Shown in pieces: positions 34,494-63,418 of a stretch of 64,000 nucleotides of DNA. The notes under the pieces were generated by a model, which did no database searches, had not been told where the DNA came from, and was given only the letters and a program-made list of their open reading frames with translations. The DNA comes from Moniliella sp. 'wahieum' (taxonomy: Eukaryota > Basidiomycota > Moniliellomycetes > Moniliellales > Moniliellaceae). The stretch's first letter is position 1. Each line of letters begins with the position of its first letter. A program made the translations under genes and the position numbers. Location of the stretch: contig RSEE01000030.1 of NCBI GenBank assembly GCA_003971905.1, positions 444,001 to 508,000 on the forward strand, written 5' to 3'.

Positions 34494-34612
34494 CGATGGG
34501 CGATGGCGATGGGCGATGGACGCTGGGCCATGGGCCATGGGCGCATGGGCGATGGTCGATGGTCGATGGGCGATGGCTATGGGCTATGGGCGATGGTCGA
34601 TGGTCATTGAGA
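34494..34612. repeat. TGG-linked heptad array (about 16 units)
   Basis: Tandem array with units TGGGCGA, TGGTCGA, TGGGCCA, TGGGCTA and TGGACGC, mostly 7 bp with two 6-bp and one 8-bp units. The linker is TGG instead of TGA/TCA and the fourth to seventh bases are a loosely conserved xCxA core, TCGA in several units. The longest heptad array in the window. Confidence 0.8.
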
Positions 34613-34898
34613 TCGCTGAGCAGTGGGTTAATGGATGTGGCTGCTGGGTGCTGGGTGGCCGTGTTGGCCGTGAAGCTTGAAGCCGGCCAGCGGCAGTCGT
34701 TGCCGACACCATCCGTGAGCGATATCAACGTTACGTTAGAAAGGCAGGGTGTACATACGCCCATTGCCCAAGAATGTGCATGTGGCATGTGCATGGAGCT
34801 GGCGCGAGGAGGCCTGAGGGCATCAATCATCGATATTCGCTTCCGATCATCGATCGCCGCTCACCAATCATGCATCATGTAATCATGTGTACCACCCA

Positions 34899-34940
34899 TC
34901 ATGCATCATGCATCACTAGTCACTAGTCAGTAGTCACTGG
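34899..34940. repeat. Mixed-core heptad array (TGCA x2, CTAG x2, GTAG, CTGG)
   Basis: Six contiguous units: TCATGCA twice, TCACTAG twice, TCAGTAG and TCACTGG. TCA recurs exactly every 7 bp although the core changes three times. Confidence 0.9.
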
Positions 34941-35154
34941 GCGCACCATCCCCGAATCCATCATCGAAAGCTACATGTCGGGTGTCGAGAAAATTGAAAT
35001 CCTTGCCGAAGACAGTTCCTGCCAACACCGATTCCACACTGGTGTACAAGCCATGTGTGAGATGTGCCACTCACCGACCCTTCGGATTGCCCGGCTCCGT
35101 CGAGGGCCGTATATTATTACGTGGGTCACACGTCACAGTCACATGTCACATTAG

Positions 35155-35182
35155 TTACTAGTTACTAGTTACTAGTTACTAG
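35155..35182. repeat. Heptad array TTACTAG x4
   Basis: Four perfect TTACTAG units (core CTAG, linker TTA), followed by TCATCGA and an octamer pair TCACTCGA. Confidence 0.85.
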
Positions 35183-35350
35183 ATCATCGATCACTCGATC
35201 ACTCGCCCCACCCACTCGAAGACTTTTGTCACATGCGAATATGTACACTTGCTACCGCACGCCGCACGGTGCAAGACTCTCCTAATTTCAAAGCGCTAAA
35301 ACCGCTGAGCCTCAGATCTCTGATCTCAAAGCCCTGGCTAAGATTCTGTG

Positions 35351-35399
35351 TGACATGTGACATGTGACATGTGATCTTTGAAATTTGATGTTTGAAGTC
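35351..35399. repeat. Seven-unit TGA heptad array with changing cores
   Basis: TGACATG three times, then TGATCTT, TGAAATT, TGATGTT and TGAAGTC. TGA keeps a strict 7-bp spacing over 49 bp while the core decays from the palindrome CATG to others, one of them AATT. Confidence 0.85.
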
Positions 35400-36021
35400 G
35401 AAGCGACATGTCGAAAAGTAATGTTTAATCCCCGTCCATGTCACTATCCGCAGCCATCAGTCGCTACGTATCCTCTGCTTTGTCGCAGAAAGCACGCCGA
35501 GTCGGGCTTAAGACCATGGGGGCTTTTGGATTGTGTTCGGAGTAGCAGCCTGATGCATGTGAGCGCGTGCGCGCTCAGCCTGAGCGCTCAGCTTGCGTAG
35601 CGCTAAGCTTAGCCTGAGCGTGTGACAGTGACATGTCAGTGACCTGTGACATGCGGGGTCTGAGATTTGAGGGCCTAAGGACTATGGAGATCGCATGGAT
35701 AGCAGGAGGGAAGTGGGGCGAGTGTTCGCTTTTAGGTACCGGTACCTCGCCTTTTTTCGACTTGGAATTATTTCCTGTACACTCTTTGTTCTTCAGCCTG
35801 CGTCGTACCTTCATCATCATGTCGGATGAGGTCGATGAGGCTAACACGTCTGGCTGGAATCCCCAGAATCACCGCCACCCCCCCTCACTCAGATCGTGCT
35901 TTGCTAAGCGCTAATGCCGGCCATGGGGCCTGGTTACTAGCAGGTCACTTGACCAGTCCGAAGCAAAAGTGATTCTAGCTGCCGTGCGGCGTCGAGTACC
36001 ACACTGAGAAGCAAAGAGGAC

Positions 36022-36070
36022 TCAGTACTCAGTACTCAGTACTCAGTACTCAATGTTCAAAGTTCAACTT
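36022..36070. repeat. Seven-unit TCA heptad array (GTAC x4, then ATGT, AAGT, ACTT)
   Basis: TCAGTAC four times, then TCAATGT, TCAAAGT and TCAACTT, all in one register over 49 bp. Confidence 0.9.
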
Positions 36071-36649
36071 GCAAAGCAAGTACCCCTGTTGCATCTTTTG
36101 TGTGGCCAAAAAGAAAACCTGTGACTCTTTGTGGCTTGGGGAAAGGGTTTGATTTGGAACTTCGTAACTATATCTACTTGTACAGATGCATGCTGCGCGC
36201 TGGGCATGATCGATGATCGGTGATCGGAACCTAATAACGATGATCTATCCTCAGATACTTAGTTACTTAGTACTTACTTATTCGCGAGGGGGTCTGTGAC
36301 ACATGTGACACTAGTTACTAATTACTGTTACTTGTGACGCGTGACACAACGATTGACATGACAAGCCCACATCGCCCTGCCTTTGCATCCACGCCAAGTA
36401 AGAGTGCTCTCAGTTCTCCTCAGTTGCTCAGCCCCTGAGTATACCAGTGCTGAGGCTGAGCCTCAGGCTCAGCGGCAGCCCGCACTCTTGGCCGGCTCCG
36501 CTCTCAACTCCGCCATCGGAGATCATCGATCAGTGTGCAGAACCAGGCCGATTGTATTCCTGACCGTGTATTGAGTTCTGATTAATGAACTGATTTCTGA
36601 CCTCTTCTGGGATGTGGGGTCTGGGTCAGCCTGAGCGCTGAGCCTCAGC

Positions 36650-36663
36650 TCAGCGCTCAGCGC
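36650..36663. repeat. Heptad pair, core GCGC
   Basis: TCAGCGC twice; just upstream TGAGCGC and TGAGCCT at 36632-36645 give the inverse orientation, making a small dyad. Confidence 0.75.
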
Positions 36664-36862
36664 CAGCGCGCGCTCGGAGCTCACTGGCATCAGTGTCGCA
36701 ACAGGTGTTCAGCCACTGTAGAAGATAACTGCGTCAACTTCTTCAGTGTCATAACTCGCTCTTCTTCTCGCGGGCTGGCTTTGCGGAGAGCTAAAGGCGG
36801 TGACGGTACCAGAGAGGCCCTCTGGGGCCTGAGGCCGCCTGAGGCTTCAAGCGTCAACGTAC

Positions 36863-36918
36863 TCAACCTTCAACCTTCAAACTTCAAGCTTCAACCTTCA
36901 ACCTTCAAGCTTCAACTT
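36863..36918. repeat. Eight-unit TCAA heptad array
   Basis: TCAACCT, TCAACCT, TCAAACT, TCAAGCT, TCAACCT, TCAACCT, TCAAGCT and TCAACTT, contiguous and in phase over 56 bp; immediately followed by TTGAAGC, which inverts the motif. Confidence 0.9.
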
Positions 36919-37531
36919 GAAGCATGAGAGATGCAGGGTGTAATATGCAACAGAATGGAATCAATGCGCCGAGATCACACAATGCACCGGTGCGCGCGCC
37001 ACCCGTGAAGTGTGATACATTGGCATATGTCATGTGAAATGGCGCAGCCATCAGTGCGTCAGTGCATGAGTGCTCAGTCCAACATTCTTACCTTTTGCGT
37101 AGCACTCCGCCGTGAGTACTGAGTGGCGTGACGCGTGAACCGCACGTTTCCGGCTCAAACACGGGGGCCGCAGGGTTCTTCGTCCTCGTCAAGCGTGACG
37201 TACGGGTCATCCATTATATCGATTTTATAACACTTGGCACTTTGATGCATAAGGGTACTCGGTAGGGGTAACTAGTAACTCGTCGTTAACTAGTAACTAG
37301 CTGTCAAAGTCTTGTAAAGCTGTAAAGGTTAAAATGCTAACCACAATACCTAGAACTAGTAAGCAGTAACTAGTAACTGCTGGGAAAAAGTAACTCGCAA
37401 CTATTGTACTCGGTAACTCAACGTTCAACGTACTCAACAGTTCTTCTGGTGCCGTCGCTGTTTCGCCGAAAAAGGGAATGGAGAGCTAGCACATGCTGCC
37501 CTCCGATATTGAACGTCAACGTGTCAACATG

Positions 37532-37545
37532 TCAACGTTCAACGT
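37532..37545. repeat. Heptad pair, core ACGT, preceded by octamers
   Basis: TCAACGTG and TCAACATG (8 bp each, 37516-37531) followed by TCAACGT twice. Confidence 0.75.
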
Positions 37546-39172
37546 TGCCGCGTGACGCGCGGACCGTGCGCGCGTATATTTTACTCACGTTTTACCGCGT
37601 TGCTGTGGGTTAGCTGGGTTACCGGTTAGCGGCTCTGCTACCTCTGTTATATGTTCCGGTTCCTGCGTTATACGTGTTACATGCGTTACAGGCTACCGCG
37701 GAGGGAGCATGTGTCCAGCGCTCACAGACACTTGTCTTTCACGGAGTGCTCTCCTACCTATCCCGACTTCAAGCTCTTTCATAGTATACGCTTCAAGCTT
37801 CAGTAAGGCTCAAGAGCGCACCCGCTGCTTCCCGCTTGAAGTTGAAGCATGAAGCTTGAAGCCTGATGAAGAACCGCCTGACCCTTGAACCTTGTTAGAA
37901 CTCACAGCGCTCATTATTCATTGAAAATATTGAAGCTTGAAGCTGAGAGCCCCACAACTGGAAGAAGTTCTTGTAGCTGGGATACGGATGGACTTGAAGC
38001 TTAATGCATCATTCATGTTGCATGTGAAGTCGGTAGGCGACCAAATATATGAGCGAGAATCCATATTCAACGTTACATGTTACACTTCAATTCAGTACTC
38101 ATTCCCTCCTCAGGCGTAGGAGTTCCGTTGTTTTTTGCTTCGGTTTCCTTGTTCCGCATCCAAGCCTGCCTAGCCTCTGGCGGGGACTCTTGGCTGCTGT
38201 TGATGCATGATGTACATCTGTACAGGCGTTGCTGTTGGCTTATTATATAGTTGACCATACCACAACCAGATTGCATCTCCTTCGAGCTCGAGGACCATCA
38301 AGACTTCAGGTCTCATATCACATTCAACTTTGTTGCACTGGGACTGCTGTTAGTACTTAGTGGCGCTTCCCTATAGTTATAGTGGTTTGGTCGAATAGAC
38401 TTTTGGCCTGCGCCGCACTCCCACATGGCGCCTCCACCTTGTTCCAATTGTGATCAAAAGCCGCACGTGTGTATGTAGGCGCCGCTGGGCGCATTCCTCT
38501 GTTCGTCTTTCTTACCACCGCAAATTTTGCTCAACTCGCTACCGCGTTACCCATTATCGCTCATCTGCTTCTAATAGCTCAGACCCCGACGTCTGCCTGC
38601 CGTAGTACGTCGCTACACAAAAACTTTCCACGACGTTAATCCCAAATGATCGATAGTCGATAGGCGATCGATCTCGATGAGATCTCGATCATCGAGCGAT
38701 CCGGATCGGCGTACATTCCTTGAAGAACACTTCAAGCTTAGTTCCACGCCTGTGGCTTTGAAGCTCTGAGATCCGAAGCTTGAATTACTGAGTACTGAGT
38801 TGAGTAGTCTGGGTACTGTGAATTATTGCTAGTTACAGTTCAGACTGATGAGTACGTTGAATACTGAGTACTGAGTGTACTGAGTACTCCGACTGAGTAC
38901 TGGGTACTGGTGTTGAGCGCGTCACGCGCCACTCCATCATCTCGGTCACCGGTCAGGCGTTCTTGACATCCAGTTTCAATCTTCAACGTTCAACGGCCGC
39001 AGTGCGCGCGTGTGGGTTGGTCCAGGTTGGTCCGCTTTTTGTCAGACACGATGAATGATTATCGATTAATGGGGCATGATGCATGGCGTATGGTGCACTC
39101 AGCCTGAGGAGAATGGAGGGTGTGTGATTCTGAGGCGCGGGGCAGCAGGCTCTGAGACGAGCAATGTGCATG

Positions 39173-39193
39173 TCACATGTCACATGTCACGGG
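39173..39193. repeat. Heptad array, core CATG
   Basis: TCACATG twice and TCACGGG in register. Confidence 0.8.
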
Positions 39194-40953
39194 CCCTGGG
39201 GGCAGGGGGGTTAAGCGCTAAGCCTTTTAGCGCTAAAATGGGATACAATTTACAATCTCTTGAAGGACCGTCACGGAGTCGACTCTTAAGGTATGGTCGC
39301 TCTTGGGAGGCTTGTTGGTGCATCGACGACGTAATAGCAGGGGCGACTCTCCTTTTGATCAGTGGCGAGAGAGGCTGCGTAGGAACCCCAGCCAGTTGGG
39401 CAATATGATAGTAAAAAACGTGTCTAAGAAAGGCATATTCGTATCCCCCGGGACGGGAAACGGGGCCGGGGAAAGCAACGTTACCGAACATGGTCTGGAG
39501 AGCCGGAACCGGATGGGAGCTGAGACTGAAGTAGGCTGGGACTGGATGTGGAGGACGAGAGAGAAATAATGGGGAGATGGTTGTTCTATTCCGGAAAGAA
39601 GATTCTCAACAGTAGAGGAAAGATACGGAGAAAGGGGGAGGGTCGGACAGGAAGACATGATTACGATGAAATGGTATGTCATGCTAGTGTATTTACAATC
39701 ACGCCAACACTGAAACCTTCACGGATTGGATACGGTCTAAAGCCGAACAGTGAGTGGCTGACAAAAGCTGAAGCTGTGAGAGATGGGAAGATGAGAGAGG
39801 TGAAGAGGCGGAGAGCAGAGGAGGCAACTAGAAGAGAACAGAAGAGGAGTTATCAGTATACCGTATAGGCTTTAGAGAAGACGGGAGCTAAAAGAGGTCC
39901 ACGGATCATGGATAGAAACCACGAACCAAATTGCTTTTACAGGCACTGCTGGGGAGACTAAAGGGAAAAGAGCACAGAGCAGAGAGGGAGAACGGGGGGT
40001 AGACGGGACTGAGGAGCAGTCACCACAAGGCAGTCTGTCTCGGGGAGGGAACCATGAAGCGAAAGCAGACTCGCAGAACTGAGTTCCCGATTAGGACGAA
40101 GCGTGGGTAAAAACAAAACCAAGGGACGACTGTCGTCGCCACGGATTCGCAGGTCGATGGGCGCTCGCGCCACCGGACACGGTGTGGTCATACGCATAGT
40201 CGGTGGGAATGTGTGTGTGATGTGAGGCTCAGGCATTATGTGCACCATGAAGTGCACATGATGGTCCTCGTGGGTGATGCAATCGCGATACTAGTAGTAT
40301 AGTGGTGTTGGCGGCGCTCGAACACCACCCTTCATTCTCAGAGAGGGGCATCAAGCAGTCACAGCCGCCACCAGGCCTGTGGCTTCGGAACAGAGAAGGC
40401 AGAAGCAGAAAACATTGGGGCTGTGGGCTACGGAAGGACTGCAGGATTCTTGGCCACACGAACAAAAGCCAGACTGTTGTGACGAAGAGACGAAGTCACA
40501 GCGAGCTCGATAACGATTCCCAACATTTGAGGGCCTTTCTTTTTCCAGAGAGTAGGGATCAGGATTCAATCTATGCTGCCACTTCTCCCATGCCAAATTC
40601 GTGAGGAGATGATGTAGTTTCCCAAAAGAGAGAGAAGACCCTCTGCAGCATTGCCCTATTGCAGGCCACTTGCTTGCCCTCGTACATCTATATTATTATA
40701 CGCATTCAACTACGCTCCAAGGTTTGCCTCTCCTCATGTCTTCTCTGCTGCTTTCCCCAATTCGATGCTTCCTTCCCTCCGTGGTTGTGATCAGCTCCCT
40801 AATTCTTCCAGACAGTGGCAGCCATTGATTGCGGCCACTTGGACACGGCGCAACAGTTCAGTGTTCAACATGTTCAACTTCCAAAAGCCATAAACAAGCG
40901 TTGAGCGCTGGCTGAGGGAAGAGCGTGCAAGCGACAAAGAGTCAAATTATAGA

Positions 40954-43485
40954 TTAGTTCGCCTCCTCCTCGTCCTCTTCCTCATCAACATTATCCCCAT
41001 CAGTGTTGGTGACAGCCTTGCCCTGTACCGTACCACTCATTGGCTTCCTCTTTTTGCCCTTCTTCTTTTCTTCCCCGCCGAAGAGACCTCAGCCTGGTCG
41101 GTAGCCATCCGCTGACGGAACTGTTCGGCGCGGGAAAGGGGTTTGGCCGGGAGAGGCAATACGGTGCCATCTGCCAGCCCGTCAACGTTGGCAGCAGCCA
41201 CGGCCGACATGGCTTCGATTTGGAACATCATGTCCCGGTTTAGATCCTTCTGCTCCGCCAGATCAGCCGCGTTTTGAGCCAATTGGGAACGCAGTGTGCT
41301 TGTCTCAGCCTCGGCGACACGCAAGTTGGCGCTGAGAGCTGTAGTGAGCGCCCGTTCTTGAGCTAGCTTGTCTGCAACCTCGGCCGCCCGATGCGATTGC
41401 CTCTCTACCTCCTGAAGTGCTTGCTCCTTTGCCAACGCAGCATTCGTTGCGCCTTCCCGAGCCTGTTCAAGCAGTTGGCCCAAGCTTTCATGTCGTTCTT
41501 GGAGTTCGATCAGATCCTGTGCCGCAAACGCACGTTGCTCGGCCTCTTGACTGCGGCGCAGCTCAGATCGAAGCGCTGCCTCATAGTATCTCCGTTGCTT
41601 GTCAAGTTGCGAGGAAAGGAGATAAGAAAATTCGAGTCCAACCGACTCAAGTTTCTTGGCCGCCGCGGCCTCACCAGATCCATCGCCTTCGCACCGTCCT
41701 GCGGCCGCCATGAGCACTGCTTGTGTAGCCGACGCATCCGCCTCGGCCTCAGCTTTAGCCGCTGCGGCGACCGCGGACGCGGCGCTGCATTCGCCAGGAT
41801 ACTCCACCTCTTAGGCCCGCTCGTCGTTCCTGTCGAAAGTTCCACTAGACCGCCATTGTTTTGCGTGCGCAGAAGGCGGTGGACATAGCGGTCTTCGGTG
41901 TAGTCCCATACTCGCTGAGTATCGAGTTCGAGCGAGTACCGGTGGCCCGAAACTTGGTAATGTGCATGCGCATGGCGGCGCTGTACCGCCCGCACCCTAC
42001 TGCCGCGCAAAGAAGGCAGACCCACAAATCGTCCGAAGTGCCGCAGGAAACACATCGTGCCGATGCCTGGGGCGCGCCATTGGGGCCCGAAGTATACCTG
42101 CACACGGGACAGCGGCTGGCACCCCACCGACTGAGGCAGGCACAGTGGAAAGTGTGTTGGCAAGGGGATGGTCATCAAGCCCGAGATACTCGCATCGAGT
42201 CGCTCCAGACAGACGGCACATGTCGGCAGCTTGCAGCCCTACTGTACTGCCCCGCCCACAGGAGGATCAGGATCAAAGCGGGAGGGATGCGGGGGAAGCC
42301 CGGCGGCGGCATGGGCTGCAGCAGACGAGGCATTGGCCCCCGGTACGTGACCTGTATGGGAAATGGTGACGCTGGTCACATAGACCACTTGGCAAATTTC
42401 GCTGGGACGGAGAGCGCTGTAGGTGCCCATGAAAAAGCTTGTAAAACTCCTCTGCATCGTCCGCATTCGGAATTTGAGTAACACGATTGCTGGTTGGGCA
42501 GTGTCTCTCTGCGAAAGTAGCTTTGGTTCATAGTGGAGAAGGGGGAGAAACGTACCGGATCATGCGCAGGTGACTGATAGCCCCAGGCCGGCTCAACAAA
42601 CTCAAGAAAATCTGAGGCAGTCATCGTGGCAGGCACAGCCAAGACGGCGAGGATGGTGCCCATCTCCTCCGCTTGCTGAGGGGGAGCAGGAGGAGGGGTT
42701 GGGGGTCCCGGGCATCTTGGTCGGCGTCGACCGATCACGAAACAGATGAACGACGCCAAACGTCACGTCCGTTGATCCTTAGTAAAAGAGTCGGAAGATG
42801 GGCATGTTGGTGAAGGGGAGGCCACATCGTGGATGCTGAACGTGCTCTGGGGGTGGAACGCAGCCAATGGGCCTTGTGGGGCATCTGACGAGGAACGGTG
42901 ACTGCTCCCACTCGAGAGCTCTCTGCCGCATCAGCAAACTCGATCTGGATCGGACCAAGCGCAGGTCGACGGAGGATGCAGGGGAGGCGATGGGGGGCGG
43001 GCGTCAAGGTTATGCGTATGGTGTTCTCCCTGCCGATGCGAGCGACTGAGCGATGTCCGACAACGGAGGAGGGACCTGCGAATCCCCGTCAAAGCGGGAT
43101 ACCTGGCCAAGCTGAGTCATGGCGCGGTGCGTCTGAGCCACAGCTTGCTGTGGCTCAGACGGTGGTGAGGTGGGAGCCAACGGGCGGGGAGGGGGTGAAG
43201 AGGGGTGGATCGCCAGCAGGGGTACAAAATATGTGCCTTCACGACGCAGGGCATCCAGCTCAGCGTCCCAGTCTGGGAGAGCAGAGCTGCTACTGGCCGC
43301 GCTGCCTGCCGGGCTGTTCTCGTACACAGTCATGTGGACCCGGTATGCGGACCAGCGCCGGGCGGGGGAGGTGTGGAGGCCGGGGCGGAGGAGCGTGTGC
43401 GACGGGAAGAGTGAGCCGAGCGTGCCACGGGGGCTGCGCCTGGGGGTCTAGAGGGAGACGAGGTGGATGCGGGGGTGCGCGACAT
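40954..43485 (-). CDS. ETP1: BRAP2/ETP1-type RING and UBP-zinc-finger protein
   Basis: Homologue of human BRAP and yeast Etp1, a predicted E3 ubiquitin ligase. The domain order is complete. A Ser/Thr/Pro-rich N-terminus is followed by the BRAP2 domain ([22 protein letters not shown] at about 42610-42670). The RING comes next (CAVCLERLD, then [10 protein letters not shown] and CPVCR at about 42090-42220), then the ZnF-UBP domain ([35 protein letters not shown] at about 41880-42060). A long coiled coil follows (about 41180-41780), and the C-terminus is Lys-rich then acidic. The tail [10 protein letters not shown] with the stop at 40954 follows after a one-base correction near 41085. Further frame losses are near 42150, 42060, 41950 and 43350. 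An intron near 42480-42550 is likely. Divergent to DED1. Confidence 0.92.
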
Positions 43486-43820
43486 GAAGGGGGAAGCGAA
43501 ATAATACGATGAGAAGGTGGTGGCGGCGGCGGTGGCGAAAACGTTAACGAGGCGCCTAGGCTGCGGCCAACTGCCGCAAATTGGATATGGTTGATGGATC
43601 ATCGATCAGGCAACCCCCGACGTGTGCTTACGTCAGGAGCCCTCTGCGCGGGCAGTGCCATGTCGCGGTGGCTTGCCACATATGACGTCATGTGGCACGT
43701 GCCATGCGCCCCACGTGACGCAGACGCCGCTTGCTGCGGACGCGGCCGGGGGCTGCGCCAATTAACACTGCCCCTCGCTGCCGCCCAATCGCATCCTATC
43801 CCCTCCTTTCACTTCCGGAC
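43486..43820. promoter_or_regulatory. Divergent promoter ETP1/DED1 with CRE and E-boxes
   Basis: 335-bp head-to-head gap. It has a perfect CRE/ATF palindrome TGACGTCA at 43683-43690, a GGCACGTGCC palindrome at 43694-43703 and a second E-box CACGTGAC at 43712-43719. A CCAAT-like CCCAATC is near 43786. The sites lie within 40 bp of each other, suggesting bZIP and bHLH control of the pair. Confidence 0.6.
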
Positions 43821-45874
<2,054 letters not shown>

Positions 45875-47162
45875 GATTCTCTTTTTCCTTCATTTTCTCT
45901 GTACCGACCTCCATCTCTCTCTCTAATGGAGGGTATTTCCTCTCATGGAGACACCATCAGTATTTCGTATGGCGTCCATGGTGTCAGTCCGTGCGAGCAC
46001 AGGCGACACATCTATACTATTTGTTTGGCCCTCCTCACAGCATCAACCACAACACAGAGAGGGCTTTTCTCCTTTTGGTCCCACTGTATTACCATCATAC
46101 GCCCCTGTGGGTATATACCTCCTAAACTTGGGACCCCACTTATGTCCCTCTCCTGATCGCGTCTCTTTTGGACCTTGTGGGGGCCAACAATCCATTGGTT
46201 TTCTTTGTTAACAATGCCGTCTCTCTCTTCTATACTATAGGGATACACAGGGACCCGTATCGCCCGAATTGCGTCACGCTGGAAGCATGGCCAGATGAAT
46301 CATGTGTCACTGCCACGACCCTCTGCGGCCGAATTGGCGTGTGACCGTACGGTTAATACAAGTCTTCCATTTCAAGGGAGGAGAAAGCGCGATGTTGGTG
46401 ACCTGCAGTGACAGGAGCATCGACCTGAAAAGAGGGAATAGGTAAGGACACATCCCGCTAGAGATGTAATCATAGAATATGGCATCCTTCTGTGTTTTGT
46501 TGTGGCGCCTGATTCTACTCTGGTGACTGATAGGAAAATCCATTCTCTTCCAAAAACCGGATGAGTACGAGTGGTTAGTTACGAATAGCCTGGTGTGGTA
46601 TAGACGTACTGTGAGAGCGATAGCACAATAGGAAGATGATATCATCCTCGAAAATTCTCGACCTTCACAAGATCGGCAACGTTGGCCAGGAAGGAGGACT
46701 CGCGCCAATAACGGTCCCGCGGACATTGTGGCTACGGCTTATGAGAGCTGGTGGCCACAGTCCCATCATGAGCCCTCCGCTGTTCAGCCTAAAACCTGTT
46801 TCTGTTTTCCCAGCCTGGTGCTTCCAGATCGCACGGATTGGCACGCGTTGTACATTCGGCTGCTGTTATATTGGTCGTTGGGTAGACGGTGCGCCGGGTG
46901 TGGGAGGGGGGCGGGGGTAGGGCTTCACGCCGATGTGGTCGGAAGAAGCATGTGAACAATTGTACCACCGGCAGGCTCTGCGCTCTGGATCCAGTTCGTT
47001 CGAATTGGCGGTTGGACCCCGCCGGCGGAGTTGCGTTGGCCAATTCCGCCTGCCGCCCCGCTGAGCTGAGCGGCTGACAATTCTTCCCGTCCGGCGCCCG
47101 TCTGCTTCTCCGTAAAGTGCTGCCCACCGCATACGCCCACCGCCAGAGTCGGTCTGCTGGCC
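45875..47162. other. 1.3-kb intergenic region between DED1 and OXA1
   Basis: No supported gene. Several open frames of 75-140 codons exist on both strands but lack recognisable motifs and overlap each other. The last 250 bp is GC-rich and is probably the OXA1 promoter, including inverted CCAAT boxes (ATTGG) near 47010. Confidence 0.4.
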
Positions 47163-48564
47163 ATGTCCGCTGCTCTCCGCTTCGCTCGGCTTCGCTCCGA
47201 GCGCCCGCCACGCCTCTCTTGGCCGCCCGCCCTGGCCTGCGCCGTGCCCCGGCCGCTGCTCCCCTTGGGCTTGCTCTCCACCGCACCCGCCCTACTGCTA
47301 CGGCCCTGCCCGCTCTTGGCCTGGGCACCCTGGGCGCCCCCCTAGTCCCTGGCGCCCGTGCCTTCTCCCTCTGGCCCTTTGGAAAGTCCAAGGCCCCCGA
47401 ATCTGAAGCAGTTGCAGCTGCCCGGCTGGTTCCACCCCAGCGACGAGCGAGGCGGCCGCAGGCGAACCCCTTTCCTCCGCCGTGGGGGATGCGGTCGAGT
47501 CCAGTGCTGGTTCGGCGCCCGAGGTGGCTGCAGCGGCAACCGATGCTGCTACTGCTGCACCCGAGACAGTGAGTGAGGCAGTGGCTCAGGTGGCGGAGGC
47601 GTTGCCCGCCGTGGGCACTGCTGTGCCCGGAGGCGAGTTTGCTGCGGCGGGCTGCCGAATGGGTACTTGACTGTGCCTTACTGCCAAGAGTTTCTGGAGT
47701 GGCTCGCCGTCTCGACGGGCATGCCGTGGTGGGTGGTGATCTTGGGTGTGTCGGTGGCGATTCGGGGTGCCTTGCTTCCCCTCACGATTTGGGGGCAGCG
47801 CATGTCGATCACGCTGAACAATGTCCAGCCCAAGATGAAGGCCCTGATGGCCGAGTACACCTATGCCAAGAAGGCCAACGACCATGCTACGCTGCAAAAT
47901 CAGGTGCGCGACTGCAGGCGCTACTTACTGCCAACATCACCGCCACCACTGCGTTCAAGGCATGATTCCCTCCTTCTTGCCAATCCCCGTCTTTGCTACG
48001 CTCTTTTTTGCTGTCAACGGCATTGCCAAGGCGGGCCTTGCCTCAATGAGCTACGGTGGCTTGCTGTGGATTCCTGACCTGACCCAGCCGGACCCATACG
48101 TATTGCTTCCTATCCTCACCTCGGCCTCGCAGCTCTTGTCCATGGAGCTTTCACGGCAGGTGCAGCCCAAGGACGAGAACACTCAGCAAAAATTCATGAA
48201 GACAGCGTTCCGAATCGGCCTGTGCGTGTCGCCGCTGCTGATCAAGAATTGGCCTTCAGGTGTACTGTTGGTCTGGGCGGTGAATGCGGTGCTGGGTGCG
48301 CTGCAGGCTTACGCCCTGCAGCACCCCAGAGCCATCAAGTACTTCGGTTTGCCCAAGCGTGCCATTGATACGCGACCAGTCAACAGCTCTGAAAATACCA
48401 AGAGCTTCCTCGAGAAGGGGAAGGACAAGATTATGGGCTTGTTTACCAAGGACCGGGCATCGTGGTGCGAGAACGCCAGGCGCAGGAGAAGCACGCAGTC
48501 TGCAAAAGCGCCGCGCTGCGCTCGAGCGCTTGGCACCTTCGTCCGGCTTGGCTGGGTCCCGTAA
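47163..48564 (+). CDS. OXA1: Mitochondrial inner-membrane insertase OXA1
   Basis: YidC/Oxa1-family insertase for mitochondrially encoded membrane proteins. The N-terminus (MSAALRFARL, then Arg/Ala/Leu-rich) is a mitochondrial targeting sequence ending near RAFSLWPFGKSK. The 60K_IMP domain starts with LTVPYCQEFLEWL, then the first membrane segment MPWWVVILGVSVAIRGALLPL (about 47719-47780). It continues with the MKAL/AEYTYAKKAN loop, MIPSFLPIPVFATLFFAVNG (about 47963), GGLLWIPDLTQPDPYVLLPIL, and the last helices near KNWPSGVLLVWAVNAVLG. A basic matrix-facing tail (RERQAQEKHA, KRRAALERL) binds ribosomes in the family; the stop could lie at 48564 or in another frame as far as 48718. One-base losses occur near 47345, 47455, 47655, 47905, 47961 and 48460. 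Confidence 0.92.
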
Positions 48565-50653
48565 CCCTCGGCGCCCCCGGCAAGCAAGAAGTAACCGCCA
48601 TAATCTCAGGTCCCAATGCACACTTATGCTCAAGACCCTCGCCGTGGTTCGAACTATGCCACTGCACTGTACGATCAAGTTCCTTCCATGCTGTTCCACC
48701 CGTTTACAAGCCGAGTAGGAATCGAGCAACGAAGACTGTGCAATAAGAAATTATCCTTTGCCCAGGGGAATGCTCGGCCCTCTATAGCGCCACAGATTCG
48801 CCATGGGGAGGGCCTTAGCTACAGAGACGTGGTCACCTACCTTTTTCTCTCGATTCGGCTGTTCAGGACGCAAGATCTGTGTGTTCAGTGAATCCGCACG
48901 CATGAAGACGGACAGAGAGGCGCGGATGTAGTAGTAGCTGCGTTAGTGCGAAGAGTGGGGGCATCATCACATCGTTGTCCCCTGGTACCGGCAGTGCATG
49001 GGATGGGGGAGCAGGAGGTGAATCAGCCTTTGGTGGTGAGAGTCGAAGCTGTTGCTGTAGCTCATCATTGCAGCAGCAGGGTTGTGATGTTGACAACAAC
49101 AGACAATCGGTTGTTTTTGAAAGCACCTGCTGGCGGTTCGACGATGCCGCAAAGTACTATGATAATGCGGTTGGGCTGATGAAGTGATGTCCTTATTAGC
49201 GAAGTCTCCGGCCCCAGGGGTATGGATGGTGCTGGTTGGCTGGCAGTGCACGAATAGAGCGGGGTAGTCGGGCAACGATTGGGGACGATAAGGGAGCTAG
49301 GTAATGATACCTGACTGTGCAGACATAGAGGTAATGACGGGGGGGTGGCGGACAGCTGAGCAAGCAAAAAGCTGAAGGCTCTGCTTGACATTTGAAGCCC
49401 CGTTGAGCTGGTTGGCAATACCAGGCGGCCCCGTTCCGCCTCTTGCTCCTCCGAGGTGCCTTCCCCTGATTAGCCTGGTTGCATCCACTCCATTCTTCCC
49501 GGCCTTGTTCGCCTCCACAAATACCACTCGCGTGGGTGAGTGGGAAAGGGGCACTGTCCGGCTCTGCCCCCTTGCCCTCGCCTGCTTTTCAAATTTCCAA
49601 CGCTTTAGCCTGAGAGCGCTGAGGCTCAGCGCAGCAGCTGGATACTACTCAGCTGAGCACTAAGAGTTACTCCGAAGCGTGAAGCTTGAAGGTTCGGTTT
49701 GACGTTAGTAACTGAGTAGTGAGTAATGAGTACTATCGAGTACCGAGTAAACGTGAAGCTTCAAGCTCTTCAAGCGCCCAGCCCGAGCTTCAGATAACAT
49801 CCGTAACCCGGCCCACACTGATCACCTACCGAGTCACCGGGTCAAATCGACAGCCAAACGGCCGTTAAAACAAAACAAGTCCTCTCGTCAATGATCGATG
49901 ACGATGAGATGATGTCGATGATGCATATGACGTCCAGGGAGTGGTCCGCGAATGAATTTCTGCTGCTGCAAGGGATGCGAACTGCCCAAAAACATGCACC
50001 ACAGAGACAAGTCTATGCTACGCCTGCGTGCGGTTCATTCCGCGGCATACTACACGCATACTCTTCGGGTAGGAATGCTCCTCAGGAAAGCTCAGGTCTC
50101 ACGATGAGAGCCAGGCACTCTCATTTATTCGTAAGATCACAGGCAAACAGCATGAAACCAAGTCCACCTCTCTCTCTATTGTCCCAGGTTGCTGAGAGGT
50201 GGTTATATGGAGCAGGCTTCAGAGCGTTAAGCCCCACGTCTGAAACATAGTACACGGTAAATTAGATGGATGGGGACACAATTTTGTTGTACGGTGAAGA
50301 TGAGCATGGGATGACCGGATGGGACACAAGAGAGAGGAAAAATGTGATCCAGTGGCAAAGATGGAAGAATGGAGCAGGGAAGGCGCGGCGAGAGTCAATA
50401 GAGATGGGCGAGAAATGCAAAGGTGACAGCAAGGAGAACCTGGACCACTGGATAGATGCCAAGGGTTGATGGTGACGACGGGGTAGATGTGGCTAATGGG
50501 TGCCAACAAGCGAGGCCGTATAGCGGTGGGAGAGAGAGAGGGGGGAAAGAGAGAGAGAAAGAGAGAGCCAATCAAGGCAGTAGAGGCCAGTGCCAATACA
50601 AGAAAGAGACGAAGAACAGACTGTCACTGCCCGCCATAGGCAGATCCAGCATC
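48565..50653. other. 2.1-kb intergenic region
   Basis: No supported gene. The plus strand is purine-rich at 50266-50620, containing a GAGAGA-rich stretch around 50530-50570, probably the 3' UTR side of the minus-strand FAM72 gene. TGAGTAG, TGAGTAA and TGAGTAC form an in-register trio at 49713-49733. CTTGAAG/CTTCAAG motifs flank it. Confidence 0.45.
49713..49733. repeat. Heptad array TGAGTAN x3
   Basis: TGAGTAG, TGAGTAA and TGAGTAC in register; only the last has a palindromic core (GTAC). Confidence 0.7.
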
Positions 50654-51751
50654 TCATCTGGGCAGAAGGGCGGGTACGTTCACGCCTTCGACCAAATCGG
50701 ACCAACTGAGTTTTTCGCCTGCAAGGATCAGGCGGGCACCAGCATACTGGCCCAGGAGCAGCATAGAGGGAACGAAGGTGCTGGTTGACGCGCCACAGGC
50801 GCTGCTGCACAATCCGTGCCTCTTCATCTTCTGATCCTCGTCCACGGCAAACAAGGCGTCCTCGACGACCAAATGAGCGGTCTTGCCTTGGTCAGCAAGC
50901 TGCTGGGCACGAGTTTCAAGCAAAGTTTGCTCTTCGAGGAGGAGGGAAAGGCGGGGAGGAACGGCCATGGCCTTGACGCCCCGATCGCCGGGAAGATAGC
51001 GCCGCTCAGTGGTTGCAATCTGGTGCAGTGAAAGACGATACGATGGCTGCGGGAATTAGATGGTCAGACTCAAGGGAGAAAGGGAAGGATGAAGTGAACG
51101 TACCCATTGGGGCCCTTGGCGTGCTTAGCAACATTGTGGGTGCAGCGCGCACAAGGAGACACGACATTGTAGCCAACCACTGCCCCGCACCCATTGCATC
51201 CCAAGGTCTGGGTCAGGCAGTTGCAAGTCCGTTCCTTGGCCGGAGGCTCGTATCCGCACTCGTCACCAAGCAGCGTATCGGGGGGTAGATGGGACTGCAG
51301 TTGGCGGGCATTGCGTCGGTGCTGAAGAGCGTAACATGAGGCTTGAGCAGAAGAACCGCCTTCATGCCCCGGTCGGTGAAAAGGTAGAGCAATGCGCGCA
51401 GCGGACGATGTAAACTGTCTGCCGCATGCCAGCCTTCTCATTACTGGAGATGGGGCGCTGGTGGATACTGGGGTTGGAGGGGACCGAACGCTGGGCAGGC
51501 GGTGAGGGCAAGGGAGGGCGAACCGTTTCCGGTGGGAGGGCATGTCGTACAGCGTGGAGAGCGAGGAACTGACCGAGGCAGAGACGAGGGGCGGAGGGGA
51601 GGAGCGCGGCGCCTGTTGGAGCCAAGGGGTGGCGAGATTGTCGTCGTAGCAGGGCGGAAAGTGAGCGGTGGATGCTGCATCGCAAGCTGGATGCCGATGG
51701 AAGGAGAGTTGAGCCAGTGATGGAAGTTGGAGAAGAAGGAGAATGCATGGC
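50654..51751 (-). CDS. FAM72-family protein
   Basis: Homologue of the FAM72 family, small Cys-rich proteins of poorly known, possibly cell-cycle or uracil-DNA-glycosylase-related function. Recognisable blocks are VYIVRCAHCSTF (about 51390), FTDRGMKAVLLLKPHVTLFSTDAMPANC (51300-51375), then CGYEPPAKERTCNC and LGCNGCGAVVGYNVV (51140-51250), with the expected paired Cys. An intron follows at about 51042-51105 (GTACGT donor, CCGCAG acceptor). The next exon holds TTERRYLPGDRGV and a long C-terminal extension rich in Leu/Gln/Glu. The N-terminal extension of about 110 Ser/Pro-rich residues is longer than in animal members. One-base losses occur near 51372 (T run) and 51283 (C run). The start is uncertain (51751 or 51814). 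Confidence 0.8.
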
Positions 51752-51961
51752 AGACGACGGGGGGGTTATATGAGGAAAAAGGTAGTTACTATCAGGGAGG
51801 AAGGGGCTGTGCAAACCAAGCCTATGCAGCCACGAGCGTCACGCGTGACGACACACACACCATCAGCGATCCGCGATCAGCGATCAGCTGCCGACTATCC
51901 TCCACTGGCTCGGCCAGTGCCTTGCTGCTGCCGGCCGCAGCGGCATTTCACACGTTGGATG

Positions 51962-51982
51962 TCACATGTCACATGTCACATG
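51962..51982. repeat. Heptad array, core CATG (3 units)
   Basis: Three perfect TCACATG units. Two in-register units, CCGCACG and TCACAGG, continue to 51996, and TCACACG and TCAGATC (core GATC) follow at 52002-52015. Confidence 0.85.
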
Positions 51983-52315
51983 CCGCACGTCACAGGCATC
52001 GTCACACGTCAGATCTCAGGATCTCAGAATCGGATCTGAGACACAACAGTGACTGGGGAGCTTGGCTCTGCTCAGCCTGAGCGCTGAGGCTCAGCCCTCG
52101 CTGCTGCTTCCGGGGGAATCGCCACGAGAGACAGCACTCGGGCCGAGGGCCGAGCAGTCGGTCCAGTGCTCAGGATCATCGATAATCGATCACTACTCGT
52201 AATGCGTAACTTAAGGGCGTTGCAGATTCCAGGAGGACCACAAAAGCACCCGAGAAGCCAATAATGCTAACGTGCTGAAAAGTAGTCACCTCACTTCACC
52301 TATGGACACGAGGAA

Positions 52316-52361
52316 TGCATGGTGTATGGTGTATGGTGGGTGTATGGTGTATGGTGTATGG
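52316..52361. repeat. TGTATGG tandem heptamers
   Basis: TGCATGG and then TGTATGG five times with a 4-bp interruption (TGGG). Period 7 as in the other arrays, but the unit does not contain TCA/TGA. Confidence 0.85.
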
Positions 52362-52548
52362 TGCACCTTTGTCCCATGGCAGCTGCTGCAGTGAGCCTTA
52401 TGCCGCTTTTTCCGAACGTGTACAACAGTGCCGGCGGTTTGCCCTATTACTAGGAGGCTAGTGGTTGCCCATTGCTGCCTGGGGCTACTTCAGGCTACTC
52501 CCTGGATTCATGGACATCATGCATAGGACGTCATGCGTTACTGATCCT

Positions 52549-52569
52549 TCAAGCTTCAAGCTTCATCGA
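52549..52569. repeat. Mixed-core heptad array (AGCT x2, TCGA)
   Basis: TCAAGCT twice followed in register by TCATCGA. Confidence 0.85.
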
Positions 52570-52581
52570 TGATCATTAACA

Positions 52582-52609
52582 CCATGCATCATGCATCATT
52601 AATCATTCT
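52582..52609. repeat. Mixed-core heptad array (TGCA x2, TTAA, TTCT)
   Basis: CCATGCA, TCATGCA, TCATTAA and TCATTCT, contiguous and in phase. Confidence 0.85.
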
Positions 52610-52696
52610 TGAAGCTAAAAACTAGTCGCCAGTCTCAGTTCACCCTATTCTTAGTCCTCATTTCCTCCGCATGGTGGCTGTGGCATGTCCCACATG

Positions 52697-52724
52697 TCAT
52701 GCATCACATATCATGCATCACTCC
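52697..52724. repeat. Heptad array (TGCA, CATA, TGCA, CTCC)
   Basis: TCATGCA, TCACATA, TCATGCA and TCACTCC in one register. Confidence 0.8.
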
Positions 52725-54320
52725 TAACTGTCACCTGTTGCGCATCTGCATCCCGCCACCCACATTGGTCACCGGCCCTTGGTCCCCGTTTTGCTTGTTC
52801 CACATAGTGGTGCATAATGTTTGTCACACAACGGCATCTTCACACTTCATCACATGGGCCTCTGAAGTATTACTGAAAGTAGGGAGAAATAACACAGAAG
52901 CGCTGCAATTCCTGGTAACCAGTAACGGTAAGCGGTAAGAGGTAGCCACCCTCTGTATCCACCATCTTTCTCGGCCTCCCGTGCCACATGCATCCTGTGT
53001 TATCCTTTCGCATAGACTTGTGTCGGGTTATGGAAAAAAGATGATCTAACGATCAACGTCCAACCTTCTGCATGATTTTCCCTCTCTCTTTTCGGCGATT
53101 TCAAGAAGCTGCCACCAACCATATTGGATGGAATAAGCCATCGGTTTTTTACCATCAACAGTAGCGCCAACAACATCAGAGCATTAAAAAAGCTAAGGTA
53201 TATATACAACGATGACTCTTCTGTAAATTGGGTACTTATTCCATCTCTTTCCTCGAACTATGCATTATACAGAGGTGGTGTGGTATAGGAAAGTACAGCG
53301 CATCAGGGCCGGCGAGGGCTATATCATAACTGTTGTGTGTATACTCTTCTCAGGTCTCCCACAACGTCTCTCGTCATCCGTTTGTCACGCAGTTCTTCTC
53401 GGCCGTTGTCACTGTGTTCTATATTATGCATGCAGGGTATATGGAGTAACTAGTATAATGATGCATGATGACGCGTTGGATTACCCGCTCTGCGCACTTT
53501 GATCTACATATCTACATGTCTACTTATCCCCTCCCTGCGGCCCATACGGGCTTCCGGGCTTAGTGTCAAAGGCTTTAAGCTCCAAGCTTAATGAGCGCTG
53601 AGCTTCGAAGTCCCAAGCGTCTGTTGACATGGACTTGAAAGAGGCCAGGGCACACACTGTTTTTGTCCAAGGTGGCTCATATTCAATATTCTGAGTGTCT
53701 CGCCGCTTGCCGCTGTGGTACCTGATGTATAGTAGTACGCTGACGCGGGGCACTGAGTACTGATATGGATGGGCCTCCACAAACATGTTACACGTGAGGC
53801 TGAGGTAGGAGGCCTGAGGCACACAATCCTGTGAATACTGAATGCGACAACGCTATCACCCGTTGTAATAGAACGCATGAGATTTCTGTTTGCTTCAAAA
53901 GAGCATTCTCTTCGGTCCCACTCAGGAATACAAGAAACAAACTATCTGAGACAAAGCTGAAAACGAGAGATCGCGTGACGCGTGGTGCTTGACGCTGAGA
54001 CGAGAATAGTTTGCTAGGCCTTGGGCCAGTCTCCCACCCTGGTCGGTCTTTCGTACGTACTCGTTCTTCTGCCTAGGGACCACAGGTACGAAGATCCGAT
54101 GCCAGGAATGCGTTGCGAATGCAGCTGCGTGGTAAGATAGTGACACGGTTTTGTTTGTTAGGAAGGGTGATGCGGGTGATGCGTGTGGGACAGCGCAGCA
54201 CAGCCACGATCTGCCTTAAAATTAACGTTTACATATTTGCATGTTTCCATGTAAATTTAAAGTTGGCGACGTAGTTTGGGCATGCAACATGGAACTGGTA
54301 AAGCGCTAACGCATAGCGCG

Positions 54321-54348
54321 TAACGCGTAACGTGTAACATGTAACGTT
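54321..54348. repeat. TAA-linked heptad array (CGCG, CGTG, CATG, CGTT)
   Basis: TAACGCG, TAACGTG, TAACATG and TAACGTT in phase; the linker is TAA and two cores are palindromic. Confidence 0.8.
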
Positions 54349-54435
54349 TGAATGCGCGGGCCTGGGCGGACAAGGCCTCTGCGCTACGCCCGGCGCTGAG
54401 CCTTCCAGCTCAAGGTGACCTCAGTTTCACTGTAG

Positions 54436-54484
54436 TGATGAATGATCAACGATGCATGATGCATGATGCATGATGCATGATGTG
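54436..54484. repeat. Seven-unit TGA heptad array, mainly TGCA
   Basis: TGATGAA, TGATCAA, CGATGCA, TGATGCA three times and TGATGTG, all in one register over 49 bp. Confidence 0.9.
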
Positions 54485-54499
54485 CATGAGTATGGCCGG

Positions 54500-54520
54500 T
54501 GACCGGTGACCGGTGACCGG
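54500..54520. repeat. Heptad array, core CCGG (3 units)
   Basis: Three perfect TGACCGG units, 16 bp after the TGCA array and in the same TGA orientation. Confidence 0.9.
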
Positions 54521-55552: not shown

Positions 55553-57748
55553 GGGAGTTACTTGGTAGCGCCACCAAGGTTAAGGAACCAGGGATATCGC
55601 TAGGATATCAGCACACAGGACGCGACAATCAAAAAGGTAAAACTGGTACATAAAGAGAAAAGATAAAGGAAATGGGCAATCTTAGTATGAGAGAGTCAAG
55701 CGAAAGATGAAAAGGGGTGAGGATGAAAATCAAACGTCCCGAGCGTCCGTCGTACACTGCGTTTGTTCACAAAATCTCTGTCCACACACAGTGTGGTAAA
55801 AAGAGACTCATCTCCCGTCGTATTAGCTCTATTACATGCCATTAGATAGCCCTGAAGCTCCATTTTGCATTAGAACTAATGAAGGCACTGCAAGGGAGCT
55901 TCGGCCTGACAACAAATAACAAATCCTGAAGCTCTCTGTAGGCAACCCACGTTTCACACTCTGTATGGTCCCACTCCGAGAGGAAAAACGAAGAGTCCTG
56001 CAGTAGGCCGCAGTGCGCATATGCTCGTTAATATCTCATTCGCATATTAACAGTCTCCTGGGAGAATGCGGGCTCTGTCCAACACGTTCCATATGCCATA
56101 TCCATCTCCCCTCAATCAAAGGGTTTTCAGGCTATAAAAATAAAAGGCTTTTCACCAAAAGTCTCTGCCTGTGCTCTTTTCAACTCTAAAAATCCATGCC
56201 GAGCCTCTCCACAGGCATGCATGAATAGTGTGGGTTGTTTGTACACGCGCTGTCATAGAGTTGACGTTGTTCGGTGGCGCTTCTAGCAGCAAGCCCCATC
56301 TCAGGTGGCCCGCCACAACGCCTATCGACTATATATGATGAAAAGTACAACCATATATATAGGCAGAAGCGCGTCATTCTTAACCATTTATTGCTGCCTG
56401 ATCGATCTGATCGATCCGTCACATGATGCATCACATTCATCACGAGCATCACGGATGGACCAATCCCGAGAGGATGAACTAGTGATATTGATACTGCCTT
56501 TGTGACAAGCACCTGTCACTGTGCTTGTGATCCTTTTTGCAAATAAATAAATGCAAGACATGTCTCTGCCAGCTTTTTGCAGGTAAGCGGGTGAGCGCTC
56601 GCTGAGCGCGCAGGCGGAACATCAGGTACATCAGGCCTGTTGACCTTCAGGCGCTGAAGCCTCAGGGCATCGGGGTCTCATCAGTCACTAGTCACCTCAG
56701 ACCAGCAGACCAGGCCTCCGAAAACTCTCCTTAAAGCTTGAAGCTCGAAGCTTTCAAGTGAGCGGTCACATAATGGTCACATGATGGGTCACACGTTCGA
56801 GAACTACATATATACGAAGACACATACAAGTACTTTTCCCTTCGACTGTACCATGTCACAACTGGGGCTACGCGAGAAAGATCAAGCTCGTATCAAATGG
56901 GAGGTTAGCAACATTGTTCGGGGGAGGAAACGGGAGGCGTAGGGAAGGCAACAAAGGGAAAGGGAAAGGGGAGAGCGAGAAGCTTGGTATGCGCGCAGAA
57001 TTGGAAATTGGAGAGAGAGGTTGAGTCTCATTCGGTGAGACATCGACTTACTAATAAATCTTTTGCTGCAGCCCAACGTGGGCCTCTGATACCCGTGTGT
57101 TGAAGTGTCAGAAAGTAGCAAGTGAATAATGGAGAGAGAACGATGGATGGCACTACTACTGACGAAGAGAGAGAAACACAGGAGGTGCTTTGGAATGAAA
57201 GAACAGGGTATTATATGTATATAGTCGAGAGAACCGCTGAGAATAGATAGAGTCGTCCGCACCATGACTAATGAGAGAAAAAATGGGATATATATGAAAG
57301 CGAGCCCAGTTGGCGGATTGTGGAAGTGAGGAAGCCCAGCTCACGGCAGCGGGGGTAGACAAGAGATGAAAGACAGGACTAGGATAGTCGTCACAGGAAA
57401 CAACGAGGAATAAAAGCGAGAAGAAAAGGCAAAAATATGAAAACGAAAAAGGCGGAAACAGAGATACTGAAGAGATGCACATCAGTGGTCAGAGAACACA
57501 TTTGGTTAGGGAAATACCAGAATGAAGATGACTCCTTAAGTTAAGACCACTCCGGGCACATATCCATCCAAAGGCATAATCGAACACCACCCGGAGTCAG
57601 AGAAAGTACAGAAGGAAAGTAAAAGTTGTGGTGAGAACAGATCCAAACACTCCAAATTCACTTATACCACATCACTTTCAACAACACACTACGCAAGATA
57701 TACCATTGTTGACACACATAGATGAAGGGGTGGTATGTAGTAACTTCC

Positions 57749-63375: not shown

Positions 63376-63418
<43 letters not shown>

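Follow-up and report, generated by a model that had tools for sequence, protein, structure and literature searches.

Heptamer arrays in the genome of Moniliella sp. 'wahieum': a TNA-centred insertion rule and its possible origin from opened hairpin ends

Introduction

Among the described systems that come closest to the one reported here, hAT transposons duplicate 8 bp of their target, and PIF/Harbinger and IS5-group elements use a TNA target triplet, which in PIF/Harbinger is duplicated as 3 bp without palindromic additions. The footprints of Ac/Ds in Candida are described as deletions and P-nucleotide insertions, explained by hairpin ends, and they are varied, with 28 types among 128 (PMC5873905). 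For V(D)J joining the dominant hairpin opening is given as one that leaves a 4-nt 3' overhang and two P nucleotides (PMC10212571). Galileo, a member of the P superfamily, is described with a 7-bp target duplication of consensus GTAGTAC (PMC2775673), and bacterial heptameric repeats with period 7 and G-rich units (PMC4692102).

We have analysed a window of 64,000 nucleotides (contig RSEE01000030.1, positions 444,001 to 508,000) of the 69.5-Mb eukaryotic genome of Moniliella sp. 'wahieum', contig C13, where the window region is present a second time at roughly 90% identity, and a 264-kb sample made up of the window and twenty 10-kb samples. The window gave 0 Rfam matches at the gathering threshold and 0 tRNAs. 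EF1-gamma proved related to EF1-gamma chains, which points to no particular taxon, and seems fungus-like. The insertion scars found in this genome resemble hAT footprints in having P-nucleotide palindromes and small deletions where the ends are joined, and in the target-site duplication flanking the joint (5 bp for the main class, 7 bp for that of 9-bp insertions); they differ in a target of 7 bp centred on TNA, in having one dominant product and in that no element was seen in a 328.5-kb scan for terminal inverted repeats (TIRs), whereas the hAT footprints are varied, involve an 8-bp duplication and belong to a known element. The TNA triplet is shared with PIF/Harbinger, unlike its 3-bp duplication, to which no palindromic bases are added. 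V(D)J coding joints, formed by RAG and Artemis, would match the proposed hairpin ends in the opening two bases past the tip, the 4-nt 3' overhang and the two P nucleotides (PMC10212571), but they are somatic and diverse, while the scars here are inherited, genome-wide and of near-fixed geometry. The proposed 7-bp target duplication recalls Galileo, although GTAGTAC has an A-N-T centre and elements with long TIRs are present there (PMC2775673); bacterial heptameric repeats have the period in common, their units being G-rich and flank-derived cores not being reported in the cited portions of that paper (PMC4692102). No description of a TNA insertion rule of this kind was found in the literature, judged mostly by titles and abstract openings.

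Results and Discussion

A sequence-only reading had described, between 34899 and 54520, period-7 arrays built on a single rule, TCA or TGA plus a palindromic tetranucleotide. The arrays are real and follow one grammar, and their cores clearly do not occur at shuffled frequencies: TSA-N4-TSA-N4-TSA matches the window 57 times where 2.29 matches are expected (100 dinucleotide shuffles; largest shuffle 7), and 23,058 places in the whole genome against 5,602 for the reversed pattern; since reverse complementation leaves the pattern unchanged, the counts on both strands are the same places. N4 was palindromic in 204 of 465 occurrences of TSA-N4-TSA in the 264-kb sample (44%; chance 6%), compared with 3-8% for the other 15 flank pairs. 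The unit of the exact period-7 runs in the window was a palindromic hexamer in 44 of 80 cases, 42 of the 44 being of the A....T type, against a baseline of 122 palindromic classes among 1,172 unit classes. A general palindrome enrichment was rejected, since palindromic hexamers taken together show no enrichment (3,954 versus 3,965 expected), whereas those of the A....T type are (1,021 versus 735).

The grammar comes down to a 12-mer as its smallest unit, TNAxy-y'x'-TNAxy or the reverse complement of this sequence, and the window holds 135 such 12-mers (shuffle mean 0.33, largest 4, in 60 window shuffles). As judged from the two copies of the window region, the elementary event would convert TNAxy to TNAxy-y'x'-TNAxy, with y'x' the reverse complement of xy, and insert 7 bp; the same event was found on the opposite strand as well, and repeated events fit arrays of the form ab(TNA b'a'ab)p TNA (xyy'x' TNA)q xy. 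The rule is not restricted to TCA and TGA but is TNA: T and A are required, N is free, and x and y are nearly free. T[AT]A flanks enclosed a palindromic N4 in 45 of 91 cases (264 kb), event rates per 1000 TNA were 8.7 (N=A), 9.4 (C), 12.3 (G) and 8.3 (T), and 76 unit scars were without strong base preference outside TNAxy. The ten cores noticed in runs and five as single units do occur, in a set that has now widened to all 16 between TSA flanks (264 kb; TATA and ATAT once each). Among 339 lag-7 runs in which the match extends over exactly 5 bases, 78 were A....T-palindromic, with two main phases (37 and 20), and the heptamer arrays at 34494-34603 and 52319-52363 do not obey the TNA rule.

The scars are not limited to the part of the window where they were noticed but spread through window and genome, as exemplified by GCTGA-GC-GCTGA at 4079..4090 (minus strand; one GCTGA in C13); by extrapolation they number tens of thousands genome-wide. 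They are located, as had been supposed, in poorly conserved DNA, with about 12 starts of grammar 12-mers per kb in those window bins where conservation is lowest.

The geometry of the joint is nearly fixed. With two mirrored bases, copying resumed at TNA in 98 cases (2.6 expected), one base to its left in 5 (0.4) and two bases to its left in 20 (0.6); three mirrored bases gave 4 matches with all resume points combined, and four to six gave 0 at any resume point tested. Two bases are nearly always added, as two P nucleotides from one end, and the duplication at the joint measures 5 bp (TNAxy) for the main class and 6 or 7 bp for minor ones. In one minor class the whole abTNAxy is duplicated, giving a 9-bp insertion (7-bp duplication plus 2 mirrored bases), as in TGTGAAC-CA-TGTGAAC at 18177..18192 (minus strand), for which one copy fits best in C13 (edit distance 5); such 7+2+7 matches number 24 at TNA and 4 at each of the next closing pairs. 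Plain 3-, 5- and 7-bp duplications were rejected, as they show no excess after removal of overlaps with the main class (TNA-TNA, 200 versus 292 expected), and longer stems or other loops form no class of comparable size, only weak ones.

Comparison with C13 shows that a single site can exist either as abTNAxy or as abTNA-xyy'x'-TNAxy (abTNA-b'a'ab-TNAxy when the strands are exchanged), the longer probably being the derived state, formed by insertion and not by deletion. The homeologous copies differ by exactly such insertions with the empty site intact, here and at a second locus, and scars frequently differ between them. On the plus strand, TGAAG-CT-TGAAG (34671..34682) faces a single TGAAG in C13 (edit distance 6 in 33 bases of flank), TGATC-GA-TGATC (36207..36218) a single TGATC, TTACA-TG-TTACA (38073..38084) a single TTACA, TTAGT-AC-TTAGT (38350..38361) a single TTAGT and TCAAC-GT-TCAAC (38983..38994) a single TCAAC; on the minus strand, AGTCA-CT-AGTCA (56683..56694) faces a single GGTCA, and the left-type array ACTCA(GT ACTCA)4 (36020..36052) is mostly absent from C13. 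The longer allele carried a perfect grammar 12-mer at the position of the indel for 14 of 26 indels of 7 bp and 5 of 7 of 14 bp, against 10 of 337 indels of 2-6 bp.

These clean differences bear on the reading of the arrays as ordinary heptamer microsatellites, in which slippage would expand any unit and hairpin formation would retain the palindromic ones. Slippage could produce some one-unit differences in existing arrays, such as TGAAG-CT-TGAAG at 49680..49691 (plus strand; one unit here, two in C13) and the left-type TGTCA(CA TGTCA)2 at 51959..51982 (minus strand; one unit fewer in C13), but the clean polymorphic scars face a single TNAxy, without a repeat to slip on, closing pairs besides T..A are rare, and flanks predict the two-core arrays. 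The 0-to-1 differences with an exact empty site already contradict slippage, which is highly improbable as the sole cause, in line with what had been suspected from the sequence.

The palindromic core is a mirrored copy of the dinucleotide that flanks the array on that side, and a change of core within an array shows where copies of the left flank give way to copies of the right one; the cores hold little independent information. At 34897..34938 the flank CA is followed by TGCA twice, then CTAG twice, a mutated GTAG and the right flank CT (one unit shorter in C13); at 52547..52572 AGCT twice precedes TCGA, the flanks predict both, and the last free base is G, not C. Other arrays are that with free base T and cores CTAG (35152..35182), the left-type TGTGA(CA TGTGA)3 (35349..35374, minus strand), the TGATGCA array with three in-register TGCA cores (54451..54482) and the CCGGTGA array with two in-register CCGG cores (54496..54520; shortened in C13). 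Both end cores mirrored the flanks in 11 of 15 two-core arrays, or at 9 of 12 loci when each homeologous pair is taken as one locus; among 223 one-unit arrays, 179 matched the left or right flank (chance about 12%), and CATG-then-CTAG arrays of the whole genome had both predicted flanks, TG..CT, in 34 of 45 cases (chance 1/256). A protein that reads half-sites at 7-bp intervals, proposed earlier, was rejected because the flanks determine the cores; a replication or chromatin role was not supported either.

The best explanation in our judgement, at a probability of roughly 0.5, is a recurrent, sequence-specific insertion at TNA through enzyme-made breaks at nnTNAnn with opened hairpin ends, and the sequence-only reading had rightly counted a hairpin-type copying process among its options. 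A putative enzyme, a candidate being a transposase or a domesticated transposase, would cut nnTNAnn with a 7-bp stagger, giving a 7-bp target duplication; the broken ends would be closed as hairpins, each nicked two bases past its tip to leave a 4-nt self-complementary 3' overhang, and on rejoining one overhang would survive while the opposite end would be shortened as far as TNA. By analogy with hAT transposons and V(D)J joining, the product would be a footprint of the excision type.

Several results speak against this hairpin-end model. No perfect 12-mer was present at 12 of the 26 indels of 7 bp, and differences of two units are common (5 grammar indels of 14 bp versus 14 of 7 bp), which is not expected from independent hits. 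The three-core array at C1:61651 requires an additional flank mutation; plain 7-bp duplication without mirrored bases shows no excess (10 versus 8.3 expected); mild enrichments occur for two-base joints with a resume point inside TNA (21 versus 6.9) and for one-mirrored-base joints resuming two bases left (18 versus 6.5); and one product dominates, whereas known hairpin footprints are varied.

The main rival is polymerase snap-back during replication, in which a nascent strand ending in y'x'TNA would fold into a mini-hairpin of 7 nt with a stem of 2 bp and TNA as its loop, two self-templated bases would be added, the bulge kept and five template bases recopied. The identical 7-bp product and the same free N would then arise in one step without nuclease or element, T and A being able to pair, and repeated slips would be expected to yield multi-unit gains. 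It should, however, accept any complementary pair, and the grammar 12-mers by closing pair (264 kb) number 255 for TNA as against 4 for ANT, 5 for CNG and 8 for GNC, with all other pairs at 32 or fewer. AT-only stems exist (xy = TT; 7 events, 7.3 per 1000), yet longer mirrored stretches hardly occur, and the 9-bp class still needs TNA though its mirrored bases do not follow the T-A pair. The stem is two and the closing pair T..A almost exclusively, where a variable stem and any pair would characterise snap-back, and we regard it as rather unlikely.

A single, highly active cut-and-paste transposon that duplicates a 7-bp target, nnTNAnn, repeatedly entering and leaving non-coding DNA, would account for the duplication and P nucleotides, for recurrence and for the symmetric target, and Galileo offers a precedent for 7-bp duplications (PMC2775673). 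Neither an occupied site nor a TIR pair with a 7-bp duplication on its flanks was seen in the 328.5 kb scanned (exact TIRs of 11 or more, at most 6 kb apart), although this DNA is rich in scars; 5- and 6-bp 'duplications' in the scan lay inside the arrays themselves and did not flank elements, and large homeolog indels had, by eye, no likeness to TIR transposons with matching duplication. Three transposase families were searched for in the genome: PIF/Harbinger PF13359 (DDE_Tnp_4) had 0 matches at E 0.001, with one control genome matched, hAT PF05699 had 0, but with none in the control genomes either, so that absence does not follow, and MULE PF10551 had 0, compared with 71 matches to reverse transcriptases. 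Such a transposon is in our view quite unlikely, and the lack of a responsible element or enzyme in these searches counts against the hairpin-end model as well. A tentative version of that model, somewhat on the doubtful side, is a cargo-free, host-encoded machine, possibly a domesticated transposase, that would break nnTNAnn, cap and open the hairpins in fixed geometry and rejoin them, reacting on its own products and serving as a main source of insertions in the non-coding DNA of this genome with a 7-bp scar each time.

Conclusions

The cause appears simpler than the sequence-only reading supposed, and a puzzling repeat family becomes a legible mutational signature with a one-line rule. The cores of the arrays record left-flank and right-flank events, and empty and filled sites are natural markers. 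The near-fixed geometry suggests a dedicated enzyme, by which an enzymatic origin of a class of short tandem repeats becomes testable.

The repeat rule and its smallest unit

The period-7 arrays of T[C/G]A and a palindromic tetranucleotide core, claimed in the sequence-only reading, were clearly borne out, since TSA-N4-TSA-N4-TSA (S is C or G) has 57 matches in the window, where shuffled sequence gives 2.29; genome-wide it stands at 23,058 places, compared with 5,602 for the reversed pattern. In 264 kb (the window and twenty 10-kb genome samples) the N4 between TSA flanks was palindromic in 204 of 465 cases, whereas between the fifteen other flank pairs just 3-8% were. T[AT]A flanks behaved alike (45 of 91 palindromic in 264 kb), therefore the rule is TNA: the palindromic cores stand, while the restriction of the middle base to C or G had to be given up. 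Palindromic cores were enriched also between complementary free bases (TCA...TGA and TGA...TCA, 27 of 117 in the 264-kb sample), a minor class outside the rule's explanation; candidate origins are a different type of event and an inverted scar. Two heptamer arrays, at window 34494-34603 (CGATGGG-like) and 52319-52363 (ATGGTGT), break the TNA rule.

Exact five-base matching runs numbered 339 at lag 7, compared with 250 at lag 5, 233 at lag 8 and 221 at lag 10; they were also numerous at lags 6, 9 and 12 (443, 372 and 367), multiples of three being what coding DNA should give. Palindromes with A....T made up 78 of the 339 lag-7 runs, with two main phases (37 and 20) which are the 12-mer TNAxy-y'x'-TNAxy and its reverse complement. 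This scar, read as a 7-bp insertion, is a 5-bp direct repeat enclosing two bases that mirror the adjoining two. The window contains 135 such 12-mers, compared with a mean of 0.33 and a largest value of 4 in 60 dinucleotide shuffles of it. Sorted by closing pair, the 264 kb gave 255 for TNA, 32 for CNT, 20 each for CNA and ANG, and at most 12 for each remaining pair. There N was unrestricted and x and y almost so, AA (2 events), AT (1) and TA (0) being the scarce xy; no strong consensus beyond TNAxy was seen among 76 unit scars.

Changing cores within one array

If an event may copy either flank, ab-TNA-xy would give only ab(TNA b'a'ab)p TNA (xyy'x' TNA)q xy. A set of 328.5 kb that takes in the C13 copies (C13 is the contig homeologous to the window) contains 15 in-register arrays with two different palindromic cores and no array with more. 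The end cores equal the mirrored flanks at both ends in 11 of the 15, at one end in 3 and at neither in 1; as three homeologous pairs reduce the arrays to 12 loci, both ends match at 9 of 12. A flank was matched by 179 of 223 one-unit arrays sharing the same free base, and genome-wide 34 of the 45 CATG-then-CTAG arrays between TSA are bordered by TG and CT, as predicted. An exception outside this set is the three-core array at C1:61651, where the outer cores match the flanks and the middle one does not.

Probable insertion between homeologous copies

The window region has a counterpart on C13, identified by DNA search, with 82% identity over the first 2.5 kb and 92-97% in the three alignment blocks of the window. 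The C30/C13 and C14/C19 comparisons show two diverged, collinear copies at both places examined, which would make the genome a hybrid, a dikaryon or a strongly heterozygous one. The elementary event of the signature is seen between the two copies. For example, exact empty sites on C13 face the scars TTACA-TG-TTACA at window 38073 (single TTACA), TTAGT-AC-TTAGT at 38350 (single TTAGT) and TGATC-GA-TGATC at 36207 (single TGATC); in the alignment at 34372, 34729 and 37250 it is C13 that has the extra unit. For the 69 one-unit arrays of the window, C13 fitted best as empty in 20 cases, as a single unit in 27 and as more than one in 5, and was too diverged in 17; for the 60 of C13, the window gave 9, 28, 6 and 17 in the same order. 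By our count 14 of the 29 cases without a unit differ from the predicted empty site by no more than three edits; the rest are noisier, and a few are neighbouring units within one array.

A perfect 12-mer accompanied 14 of 26 indels of 7 bp and 5 of 7 of 14 bp, as against 10 of 337 of 2-6 bp; some occur at other lengths too, for example with 4 of 10 indels of 8 bp and 2 of 6 of 13 bp, because indels cluster in arrays. Sites at window 35424, 37909 and 34930 are near misses whose mirrored pair has a single mismatch; in the window/C13 comparison the rule is broken at 38650, 34601 and 39391. The empty/filled result was reproduced at a second locus, genome sample L014 against contig C19. For 12 L014 arrays C19 fitted best with no unit in 7 (edit distance 0 in two, two others overlapping a neighbouring difference), an equal number in 4 and was diverged in 1; for 7 C19 arrays L014 was empty in none, had more units in 2, an equal number in 1 and was unaligned or diverged in 4.

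Proposed mechanism of the insertion

Two mirrored bases are added: three gave 4 matches summed over resume points, and four to six gave 0. The usual resume point of the copying is TNA (98 against 2.6 expected); sometimes it is two bases to its left (20 against 0.6), and less often one base to its left (5 against 0.4) or inside it (21 against 6.9). In a second, 9-bp class all of abTNAxy is duplicated, and TNA is needed here too: it accounts for 24 of the 7+2+7 matches, and the pairs ranking next for 4 each. Duplications that lack mirrored bases showed no excess. Polymerase snap-back would yield the main product, but it accounts for neither the T..A specificity, nor the two-base rule, nor the 9-bp class, and we regard this main rival as less likely. 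The products would rather be the outcome of a hairpin-ended break, a mechanism in which we are about half confident: the DNA would be broken with a 7-bp stagger, both ends would form hairpins, each hairpin would be nicked two bases past its tip and one 4-nt overhang would be retained. According to PMC10212571, a nick two bases past the hairpin tip, the position proposed here, is the dominant opening in V(D)J joining. Ac/Ds leaves hairpin footprints with P nucleotides in yeasts and plants, as described in PMC5873905; unlike in those footprints, a single product is far more dominant here. What also fits less well is that a site often differs by two units, in one case with one core of each type, left and right (the C13 counterpart of window 56515), and this calls for recurrence or processivity.

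Genomic setting and abundance

The genome assembly comprises 69.5 Mb in 223 contigs, and the window is C30:444001-508000. Genome size, short open frames and the EF1-gamma, ALG6/8 and 60KD_IMP (Oxa1-type) domains point to a eukaryote. By eye, the EF1-gamma gene (window 25182-26638) has an intron of about 200 bp, and its first exon is apparently frame-shifted, possibly by assembly error. A long TGC/TGTAGCTGC repeat of period 3/15 at window 63221-63425 overlaps a long open frame. Window 55480-55560 resembles 57740-57830 by eye, perhaps as a dispersed repeat, because the latter's part of the window has no aligned C13 counterpart.

Across the genome the class TSAAGCTTSAAG is matched 5,494 + 5,366 times, whereas its reverse is matched 3 + 5 times; an A-S-T version has 70 + 74, and that control reversed (2,765 + 2,832) is itself one of the legal scars. 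The genome samples, 200 kb in all, contain 120 instances, which by extrapolation would give about 40,000 scars in the whole genome. By identity of 500-bp window bins to C13, scar starts numbered 1 in 50 bins (at least 97%), 20 in 38 (94-97%), 55 in 30 (90-94%) and 59 in 10 (below 90%), a partly circular scale as gaps were scored as differences; even so, the scars lie in DNA that is poorly conserved and presumably non-coding.

A responsible element or enzyme was not found among three transposase families and the TIR pairs of the stretches scanned; reverse transcriptases were detected (71 matches). Tests for membership in known transposon families spoke against it wherever they gave a verdict. 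The genome-wide mutational signature is real and reduces to a one-line rule that is nearly certain, and it appears to act like a transposon excision footprint.
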